Assembly: GCA_019873655.1 (NCBI GenBank)
Contig: JAIOAU010000012.1
Coordinates: forward strand, 1 to 64,000
Source: Chloroflexota bacterium
Lineage (GTDB): Bacteria; Chloroflexota; Anaerolineae; Anaerolineales; Villigracilaceae
Reading direction: 5' to 3'
DNA: 64,000 nucleotides
Shown here in pieces: positions 2 through 51,003 of this stretch (the first letter of the stretch is position 1; every line of letters begins with the position of its first letter). Under the pieces are notes generated by a model. That model saw only the letters and a list, made by a program, of their open reading frames with translations, searched no databases and was not told where the DNA came from. The position numbers and the translations under genes are program-made.

Positions 2-70
2 GCTTTGGCTGAATTGCCTGCTCCAGAGCCTTTTCAATTGCCGCTCCCTATCCCTTTGTCAGGGGTATGA
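2..70 (+). CDS. Possible 3' end of an upstream gene (partial)
   Basis: One plus frame is open from the window edge to a TGA at 68-70 and would encode a Pro/Leu-rich tail of about 22 residues (..PAPEPFQLPLPIPLSGV). Its composition looks like a protein C-terminus, but the stretch is too short to assign a family. It could equally be non-coding. Confidence 0.2.
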   Translation, partial: ALAELPAPEPFQLPLPIPLSGV

Positions 71-10924: not shown

Positions 10925-11368
10925 TCAATCTTCCATTTGGCGGGCGGCTTCGGTGAGCAGCGTCAGGGCGCGGATGACCATCTCTTGTTGTTCGGCAGTC
11001 AGGGATTGGGTGATGTTTTCGATCCACTGGCTGCGCGCCTCGATGCCCTTTTTGATCAGCGCCAGGCCGTCGGGCGTCAATTTGAGCCGCTTGGCGCGCC
11101 GGTCTTGGGGGTCTTCGGTGCGCTCGACCAGCCCCATTTGAACCAGCCGGTCAACGGCCTGGCTGGCGGCGGCATTGGTGATCCCCATTTTCTCCCCAAT
11201 ATCCGAGACGCCAATGCTGTCTTCGTGCATCATGCGCATCAGAATGTTGATTTGCGAAAACGACAGGCCGGTGGCGTCCATGAAGCGCTTGAAATCGCGG
11301 CCGGAACGGTGCATGAAGACCTTGGCCCACTCGCGCACCACTTCGGAAAATAGTTTATCTGTCTGCAT
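10925..11368 (-). CDS. MarR-family transcriptional regulator
   Basis: A winged-helix protein of about 147 aa. The recognition region is VSDIGEKMGITNAAASQAVDRLVQMGLVER, followed by the wing DPQDRRAKRLKLT and a C-terminal dimerisation helix. The ATG at 11368 is preferred (AGGA 9 bases upstream); an in-frame ATG at 11377 is possible. It is the first gene of the operon with the two exporter subunits. Two TAATTA boxes sit over its start region just downstream of a strong promoter, so it probably represses itself and the exporter until a ligand binds. Confidence 0.92.
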   Translation of the reverse strand: MQTDKLFSEVVREWAKVFMHRSGRDFKRFMDATGLSFSQINILMRMMHEDSIGVSDIGEKMGITNAAASQAVDRLVQMGLVERTEDPQDRRAKRLKLTPDGLALIKKGIEARSQWIENITQSLTAEQQEMVIRALTLLTEAARQMED

Positions 11369-11386
11369 AATTAACATTCCTAATTA
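11368..11386 (-). promoter_or_regulatory. Putative MarR operator (two TAATTA boxes)
   Basis: TAATTA occurs at 11368-11373 and 11381-11386, 13 bases apart, between the promoter and the MarR start codon. MarR proteins commonly bind AT-rich palindromes at this position. Function is inferred from position and symmetry only. Confidence 0.5.
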
Positions 11387-11400
11387 GTTAAGCGGGCTTG

Positions 11401-11429
11401 AATATATCGCTTTCGTGGAAAGTTGTCAA
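11401..11429 (-). promoter_or_regulatory. Sigma70-type promoter of the marR-ABC operon
   Basis: On the minus strand TTGACA (11429-11424) and TATATT (11406-11401) are separated by exactly 17 bases. Transcription would start near 11394, just ahead of the TAATTA boxes. Confidence 0.8.
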
Positions 11430-11491: not shown

Positions 11492-11497
11492 TATAAT
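11492..11497 (+). promoter_or_regulatory. -10 element of the tyrS leader transcript
   Basis: A perfect TATAAT lies 7 bases before the ATG of the leader peptide. The -35 region is poor. A start at about 11503-11505 would make the leader peptide mRNA leaderless or nearly so. Confidence 0.55.
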
Positions 11498-11504
11498 TAC
11501 GGTT

Positions 11505-11552
11505 ATGGAAGACCGCTCTCGCTCTCTGGGGTATTATTATCCTTGCCGCTGA
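11505..11552 (+). CDS. tyrS leader peptide with three tandem Tyr codons
   Basis: A 15-codon reading frame encodes MEDRSRSLGYYYPCR and stops at 11550-11552. The run TAT TAT TAT (11532-11540) sits where a stalled ribosome would control downstream RNA folding. A mutually exclusive antiterminator (11558-11564 with 11583-11589) and an intrinsic terminator (11575-11605) follow, then tyrS. This is the layout of amino-acid-operon attenuators such as trp or his, here with the codon that matches the downstream tyrosyl-tRNA synthetase. No Shine-Dalgarno sequence is seen; initiation may be leaderless. Translation of the peptide has not been shown. Confidence 0.7.
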   Translation: MEDRSRSLGYYYPCR

Positions 11553-11557
11553 CCGTT

Positions 11558-11605
11558 GCTGCGGATGAGTGCCACGCGCCTGCCGCAGCGGGCGCGTTTT
11601 TGTTT
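11558..11605 (+). terminator. Attenuator of tyrS: terminator with competing antiterminator
   Basis: Terminator: a 9-bp stem (11575-11583 with 11588-11596, one G-U pair), tetraloop CGCA, then TTTTTGTTT. Antiterminator: GCTGCGG (11558-11564) pairs perfectly with CCGCAGC (11583-11589), which includes part of the terminator stem. A third segment, CCGC at 11546-11549 inside the end of the leader peptide frame, can sequester GCGG (11561-11564). A ribosome stalled on the Tyr codons would cover CCGC and free the antiterminator; a ribosome at the stop codon would cover the antiterminator arm. Confidence 0.7.
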
Positions 11606-11640
11606 GCAACCATTAACCCTTCTTTGCCTCGGAGTTTTCC

Positions 11641-12864
11641 ATGACCACCCTCACCATTGACCAACAAGTCGCCCTCCTCATGCAAGGCACGGAATACGGC
11701 GACGAAGAACTCAAGCAAAACATGGCGCGCGAGTTGAAGGAACGTCTGCTCGAAGCGCAGAAGGAAGGCCGTCCCCTGCGCGTCTACTGCGGCTTCGACC
11801 CGCGCACCAGCGACCTGCACCTCGGCCATACCGTCCCGATGCGCAAACAGCGCCAGTTTCAGGAACTCGGCCACGAGGTCACCTTCGTCGTCGGCGACTA
11901 CACCTCGCTCATCGGCGACCCCTCGGACAAGGACAAACTCCGCCCGCGCCTGACGCCCGAAGAAGTGCGCCATAACGCCGCCACCTACGCCGAGCAGGCC
12001 TACAAGATTCTCGACCGCCACAAGACCAAAATCCGCTTCAACTCCGAGTGGCTTTCTGAGTTGACCTTTGCCGAACTCATCGAACTGGCCTCCAACTTCA
12101 CCGTCCAGCAGTTCGTGCGCGAACGCGAAAACTTCCGCCTGCGCTGGGAAAACAACGACCCCATCTACCTGCACGAGACCTTCTATGCCCTCATGCAGGG
12201 CTACGACGCCTACATGCTCCGGGCCGACGTCCAGATTGGCGGCACCGACCAGATGTTCAACATCATGACCGCCGCCCGCAAAATCATGACCGCCCTCGGG
12301 GCGCGTCCCAACATCGCCATCATCCTGGGCATCCTGCCCGGCACCGACGGCGAGGTCAAGATGAGCAAATCGCTCGGCAACCACATCCCTCTGCTGGCGA
12401 CGCCGGAGGACATGTACGGGAAGGTCATGTCCGTGCCCGACAAGGCGATGGGGCAGTACATGCGCCTCGTCACGCGCTGGACCCCTGACCGGATTGCCGA
12501 GATGGAGGCCGCTCTCCGCTCTGGCGCGCTGCATCCGCGCGACGCCAAGATGGCCATCGCCCGCGAGATCGTTTCCATCTTCCATGACGAAGAGTCCGCC
12601 GCCCGCGCCGAGGAGACTTTCAAGCGCGTCTTTCAGCAGAAGGATGTCCCGGACGAAATGCCCGAATACACCCTCCAGCCCGGGCAAACGGTGCTGGACG
12701 TGCTGCTCGCCGCTGGCCTGGCGACGAGCAAATCCGAGGGGCGGCGGCTGATGGACCAGAAAGGCGTCCGCCTGGATGGGGAAGTGCTGGAAAAATTCGA
12801 CGCTCCCTTTCCGCACCCCGGCGTCTTGCAGGTAGGCAAGCGGCGCTTTGTGCGCGTCAAATAG
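11641..12864 (+). CDS. tyrS: Tyrosyl-tRNA synthetase
   Basis: It charges tRNA-Tyr with tyrosine in the cytoplasm. The 407-aa protein is a class I synthetase of the second bacterial TyrRS type, with the HIGH-equivalent HLGH in CGFDPRTSDLHLGH, tyrosine-site residues around YALMQGYDAYML and IGGTDQMFN, KMSKS as VKMSKSLGNH, and an S4 RNA-binding domain at the C-terminus (VLLAAGLATSKSEGRRLMDQKGV). GGAG lies ahead of the ATG. Expression is probably controlled by the Tyr-codon attenuator in its leader. Confidence 0.97.
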   Translation: MTTLTIDQQVALLMQGTEYGDEELKQNMARELKERLLEAQKEGRPLRVYCGFDPRTSDLHLGHTVPMRKQRQFQELGHEVTFVVGDYTSLIGDPSDKDKLRPRLTPEEVRHNAATYAEQAYKILDRHKTKIRFNSEWLSELTFAELIELASNFTVQQFVRERENFRLRWENNDPIYLHETFYALMQGYDAYMLRADVQIGGTDQMFNIMTAARKIMTALGARPNIAIILGILPGTDGEVKMSKSLGNHIPLLATPEDMYGKVMSVPDKAMGQYMRLVTRWTPDRIAEMEAALRSGALHPRDAKMAIAREIVSIFHDEESAARAEETFKRVFQQKDVPDEMPEYTLQPGQTVLDVLLAAGLATSKSEGRRLMDQKGVRLDGEVLEKFDAPFPHPGVLQVGKRRFVRVK

Positions 12865-50743: not shown

Positions 50744-50864
50744 CGCAATTTCCTCTTTGTGGAATAGTCTGAAACAAAATCCCCCGTCGCAAGGACAGGG
50801 GAGGCAGGAGTGGCAATCCAACAGGCCGTTCCCCACCTCCTTTCCGCGAGAGTGTGGCAGAACC

Positions 50865-50990
50865 GACCAGGGCGGGCGACCTGACTTGGGATTGGTCTAA
50901 CTTCCCTCACAGTTGCGGGACAGCGCCGGACTCGCACCGGCTTCGCCTTTGAGCCTGCCCATCCGGGGGCGAGGCACCCTGGCCGTGACT
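50865..50990 (-). ncRNA. Cobalamin riboswitch
   Basis: The minus strand carries the conserved core CCGGTGCGAGTCCGGC (50940-50925), CTGTCCCGCAACTGT (50924-50910), and a B12-box-like AGTCAGGTCGCCCGCC (about 50886-50871). The 5' stem begins with AGGGTGCC. The layout (promoter, aptamer, about 120 nt, btuF) suggests repression when cobalamin is plentiful; the exact expression platform was not resolved. The remaining 120 bases before btuF hold no ORF I support. Confidence 0.92.
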
Positions 50991-51003
50991 CGATTGTGGC
51001 GCT

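Follow-up and report, generated by a model that had tools for sequence, protein, structure and literature searches.

The leader of tyrS in the stretch of DNA analysed here (64,000 nucleotides, hereafter the window) very probably acts as a ribosome-mediated transcription attenuator responding to charged tRNA-Tyr. The predicted device, consisting of a short peptide ORF with consecutive Tyr codons and of a terminator and an antiterminator that preclude each other, is conserved across the Anaerolineales, the order of the host, though some clades lack the element.

Organization of the tyrS leader in the window

The host genome comprises 3.04 Mb in 45 contigs. In its tyrS leader, TATAAT, a gap of 7 nt, the ATG of MEDRSRSLGYYYPCR (followed by a stop), the antiterminator and terminator stems, and tyrS follow one another in this order:

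11492–11497, + strand: −10 element TATAAT of the tyrS promoter; predicted start point at or adjoining the peptide ATG
11505–11552, + strand: leader peptide ORF (MEDRSRSLGYYYPCR and stop), 15 codons, with ATG at 11505 and TGA at 11550–11552
11532–11540, + strand: putative regulatory codons, three Tyr (TAT TAT TAT); runs of Tyr codons also occur in relatives
11536–11549, + strand: segment 1, end of the peptide ORF, predicted anti-antiterminator; its partner is the segment 2 region (11557–11569)
11558–11564, + strand: segment 2, 5′ strand of the antiterminator, GCTGCGG
11583–11589, + strand: segment 3, 3′ strand of the antiterminator, CCGCAGC
11574–11601, + strand: intrinsic terminator with a 10-pair stem, a 4-nt loop, and T5; kept in relatives
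11641–12864, + strand: tyrS, tyrosine--tRNA ligase, 407 aa (TIGR00234 equivalog)

The encoded TyrS scores 333 bits against the equivalog model TIGR00234 (cut-off 113.8), and a ribosome-binding site, CGGAG, lies at 11630–11634. The 15-codon leader peptide with Tyr-Tyr-Tyr that the original prediction had placed before tyrS is confirmed by the ORF and the Tyr codons listed above. The terminator, which is the sole strong + strand terminator near the leader ORF, is built from the arms ACGCGCCTGC/GCGGGCGCGT (11574–11597, one G-U) and the loop CGCA, followed by T5 at 11597–11601; the T5 is as predicted, and the stem, given earlier as 9 bp, is counted at 10 pairs.

Segments 2 and 3 form a 7-bp perfect complement, and segment 3 spans the inner 5′ arm of the terminator, its loop, and the first bases of its 3′ arm, so that the antiterminator draws on arm and loop bases of the terminator and the two stems are mutually exclusive. 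In partial-transcript folding, the antiterminator is the minimum free-energy structure (−16.7 kcal/mol) when RNA polymerase is only at 11589, and it is overtaken by the terminator (−19.5) once the 3′ arm of the latter exists. Both the pairing and this folding bear out the perfectly complementary and mutually exclusive antiterminator proposed earlier. Segment 1 pairs with 11557–11569 at −8.8 kcal/mol. Folding of the leader RNA, which had been proposed as a check, yields the alternative stems, but the overall stability of the 102-nt leader is unexceptional (z −0.88). Since the window fold is ordinary by itself, the case rests on comparison with relatives, whose conservation and covariation raise the element above chance at the level of sequence.

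Two further features of the window may be recorded. The divergent ORF at 10925–11377 (− strand), resembling a MarR-type regulator by eye, adjoins two ABC-transporter-like ORFs and has a near-consensus promoter (TTGACA-17-TATATT at 11429–11401), and a cobalamin riboswitch (RF00174, 65.8 bits) is found at 50854–50996 (− strand).

Conservation and covariation among relatives

The tyrS leaders compared number 259, of which 219 are distinct, and were drawn from the family, order, and class of the window; the named TyrS relatives belong to Anaerolineales and other Anaerolineae, almost all being metagenome-assembled genomes. When the last eight residues of any ORF ending 10–45 nt ahead of the terminator were inspected in the distinct terminator-bearing leaders, at least two adjacent Tyr were found near the ORF end in 102 of 132, the runner-up, Ile, reaching 6 leaders and every other residue at most 6. 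The Tyr runs are 2–5 codons long (TAT 218, TAC 67) and lie 3 codons ahead of the stop in 82 of 105 leaders, and the distance from the stop to the terminator is 19–24 nt in most. Segment 2 usually starts about 5 nt past the stop and 20–30 nt past the first Tyr codon, so that a ribosome at the stop codon would cover it and a ribosome on the Tyr codons would not, in accordance with the earlier proposal that the spacing fits a stalled ribosome.

Within the family of the window (86 distinct leaders), 66 leaders were called dedicated, with a peptide ORF of their own, and 9 were called tail form, with the Tyr codons at the end of an upstream protein, while L025 and L027 also proved dedicated on inspection and several of the remaining leaders are truncated; besides these two leaders, the calls were corrected by hand for L007, L050, and L101 (tail form) and for L199 (a false call). 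The element is absent from about 6 of the 86, besides the truncated ones, and from several clades of the order. Conservation of the Tyr run and of the alternative stems in related tyrS leaders, named in the original prediction as its test, thus extends across the order. In the host genome, the pattern TATAAT-6..9-ATG-9..39-TAYTAY has two matches only, one of them the tyrS leader.

The distance from the end of TATAAT to the start codon is exactly 6 nt in 52 of 81 dedicated leaders (60 of 90 in a second tally) and 6–9 nt in 79 of the 81, and because of this spacing the transcription start very likely coincides with the peptide ATG at 11505 or adjoins it, upstream of position 11540, beyond which a start would have been incompatible with the original prediction. 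This peak recurs among ordinary ORFs of 100 codons or more in the loci compared, with 45 of 108 at 6–7 nt, and within the window a TATAAT lies 7 nt ahead of the ATG in two ORFs. A start at 11504–11505 leaves no room for a Shine-Dalgarno sequence before the leader ATG, and the mRNA that encodes the leader peptide is probably leaderless.

The antiterminator helices of the relatives include GCTGCGG/CCGCAGC, CTGTGGAG/CTCCACAG, GCGATGGTG/CACCATCGC, GCGGTAGTG/AACTATCGC, GCGAGGG/CCCTCGC, TTTTACGAC/GTCGTAAAA, CCGTC/GACGG, and others, many of them unrelated in sequence. The energy of linker:terminator pairing is −19.84 for native partners versus −15.64 ± 0.28 for swapped ones (mean and s.d., 105 leaders), partner swapping weakening the antiterminator in all of 20,000 permutations. 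In a 22-row alignment, where the terminator stem is mostly invariant, double-sided changes occur in 8 of 9 antiterminator helix pairs, with lower values for slid partners, these counts being taken over related sequences aligned by MAFFT or by energy. The alignment of related leaders for covarying stems that had been called for thus came out positive, in the double-sided changes as in the swap test (0/20,000 as low), and it is by compensatory change that the predicted antiterminator is maintained. Comparison of sequences likewise establishes the ORF, its Tyr codons with their frame, and both stems as features of the leader. The pairing of segments 1 and 2 gave −8.78 for native and −6.71 ± 0.23 for swapped partners in 80 dedicated leaders, with 0/20,000 swaps as low, but was not significant in 25 tail-form leaders (3880/20,000 as low); the third segment suggested to block the antiterminator is therefore conserved in the dedicated form only.

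Other Tyr leader types were seen in the Anaerolineae. In other families of the class, L230, L237, L241, L245, L247, L251, and L253 carry a different leader whose peptide ends in YxYxxGL before the stop; as viewed in the last 260 nt before tyrS, its last codons with the stop (AGCGGATTGTAGCGC) pair with a GCGCTACAATCCGCT further downstream into a long hairpin, behind which most of these leaders have a second hairpin, CCCAC/GTGGG. The segment hardly varies between leaders, apart from one compensated change in L251. Yet another type, YxY..GG, occurs in L083, L098, L205, L210, L226, L250, and L257, with a GGGGCG/CGCCCC-like hairpin within the ORF and a GCGTGGCG-type terminator 29–46 nt past the stop. 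In other classes of Chloroflexota, the apparent YY of L323 and L325 is promoter sequence, and these candidates were rejected.

Tyrosine codons at the end of a membrane protein

Of the 105 leaders, 25 have their Tyr codons at the C-terminal end of a full-length upstream membrane protein, behind which lies the same terminator switch. This protein, of about 170 aa and ending in YY[S/A]Rx before the stop in most cases, contains hydrophobic segments which, judged by eye, look like a pair of membrane helices; a match to the PH-like domain bPH_6 lies above the cut-off in L071 (25.1 bits) and is weaker in three others. At the six loci where the same upstream gene precedes a dedicated leader, its product has only one Tyr at the end (YSR-like), compared with YY in 22 of 28 cases where no dedicated leader is present (Fisher p = 0.0007); since YY is also the criterion that defines the tail class, it is the comparison with the six dedicated-leader loci that is informative. 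On the TyrS tree, in which L050 was counted as 'none' and L199 as dedicated and which may differ from the species tree, at least 6 interchanges between the dedicated and tail forms are needed, and the clade that contains the window has a tail-form leader, L036 (the same locus as L007), as its sister. We consider it likely that a synthetase attenuator can have its sensing codons at the C-terminus of an ordinary full-length protein, and that lineages switched between the two forms several times. The interchange between a dedicated leaderless peptide and a membrane-protein tail would offer a natural series for the origin and loss of leader peptides.

A further leader, L016 (G067), has a terminator and an antiterminator-like linker after a different, acidic upstream protein with a single terminal Tyr (EDEY before the stop), and is possibly a degenerate or third form.

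Predicted mechanism and relation to known systems

In the predicted mechanism, for which we infer the start site, leaderless translation, stalling, and the response to tyrosine limitation from the leader sequences, RNA polymerase would start at about 11505 and a ribosome would load onto the leaderless message and translate MEDRSRSLGYYYPCR. With plentiful Tyr-tRNA, the ribosome would reach the stop codon, cover segment 2, and then free segments 1 and 2 to pair, upon which the terminator (11574–11597) would form and end transcription ahead of tyrS. With scarce Tyr-tRNA, the ribosome would stall at the Tyr codons and mask segment 1, leaving segment 2 (11558–11564) free to pair with segment 3 (11583–11589); this pairing would preclude the terminator, and tyrS would be transcribed.

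The conserved Tyr residues in a short ORF just ahead of a terminator would also suit nascent-peptide arrest, for which TnaC and the Erm leaders are examples and in which the peptide itself would stall the ribosome on free tyrosine or a drug, not by waiting for Tyr-tRNA. We judge this highly improbable, as the peptides share little beyond Tyr (PCR, SHP, YLP, ALF, SRE, and VRP endings), and the frequent SHP-like endings fit RNA pairing with segment 2, the common ones encoding the 1:2 pairing segment. Moreover, the target gene is the Tyr synthetase, and in the tail form the Tyr codons sit at the end of an unrelated protein.

Evidence on the reading frame bears on another reading, in which the Tyr run is non-coding. 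On this view, TATTATTAT would be a second −10, an AT-rich element of a promoter, and the hairpin would simply terminate upstream or antisense transcripts. TATTAT does look like a −10 element, and the YY-like stretches in two leaders of another class are promoters. However, in 78 of 78 leaders tested, the Tyr run is read in the same frame as the start codon linked to TATAAT, and it never occurs in either of the remaining frames. This argues against a non-coding run, as do the synonymous TAC present in 57 of 105 runs, the stop mostly 3 codons away, and the 25 leaders in which a full-length protein ends, in frame, with the Tyr codons. The non-coding reading is thus extremely improbable, and translation of the Tyr codons, as required for ribosome-mediated attenuation, is preferred.

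A tRNA-binding T-box or other riboswitch with an incidental short ORF has a practically negligible probability, for although tyrS is a T-box gene in Firmicutes (PMC2494555) and the host genome has seven T-box matches, these precede other genes, none lying before tyrS, and neither the window leader nor the leaders of 20 related tyrS loci match any Rfam family (T-box, RF00230, included), the sole T-box found at those loci, in L057, being on the other strand. The seven matches (L303–L309) precede a trpB-like gene, valS, ileS, pheS, thrS, leuS, and serS; only L303 is over the gathering score, the six below it having E-values of 3e-9 or better. No consistent Phe or Trp leader peptides were found before the relatives' pheS and trpS, and a T-box over the gathering score occurs in 6 of 13 pheS loci searched. 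The original prediction had set the peptide attenuator against the T-boxes of tyrS in Firmicutes; the host belongs to the Chloroflexota (Anaerolineales), and with T-boxes at six other synthetase genes the contrast falls within one genome, so that a single cell would have two mechanistically distinct means of sensing tRNA charging.

The trp, his, and pheST systems of Proteobacteria are classical ribosome-mediated attenuators, and the window copy is one as well by its predicted design, sharing with them the short ORF with a run of cognate codons, the alternative 1:2, 2:3, and 3:4 pairings, and the intrinsic terminator, but differing in its Tyr codons, in tyrS, and in the phylum; what is new is the target, the taxon, and the protein-tail form. 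The tail form alone resembles the E. coli rph-pyrE attenuator, whose terminator is governed by translation of the last part of the full-length gene ahead of it, although rph-pyrE responds to polymerase pausing at low UTP and not to stalling at specific codons. No Tyr-specific ribosome-mediated attenuator on tyrS was found described in the open-access literature searched; a survey of synthetase attenuation reportedly made by Lopatovskaya and colleagues in 2010 (cited in PMC4833913) might mention related cases. The proposed tyrosine attenuator lies in a phylum whose gene regulation is little studied, and its many different antiterminator sequences provide an unusually clear covariation record for an attenuator.

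In Streptomyces, ribosome-mediated attenuators have been described for trpS and leuS, with no such element found at tyrosine genes in Actinobacteria and T-boxes at tyrosine genes elsewhere (PMC1262725). The leaderless leader peptides of Streptomyces lividans, LeuL2-leuS, TrpL2-trpS, and ThrL-thrS (12–18 codons), similarly carry cognate codons ahead of a synthetase gene, but concern other amino acids and another phylum, and a U-rich terminator follows only some of them (PMC8079986). With the T-box tyrS leaders of Bacillus subtilis, the present leader would share transcriptional control of tyrS through Tyr-tRNA charging; in those, unlike here, the RNA binds the tRNA directly, without translation (PMC2494555).
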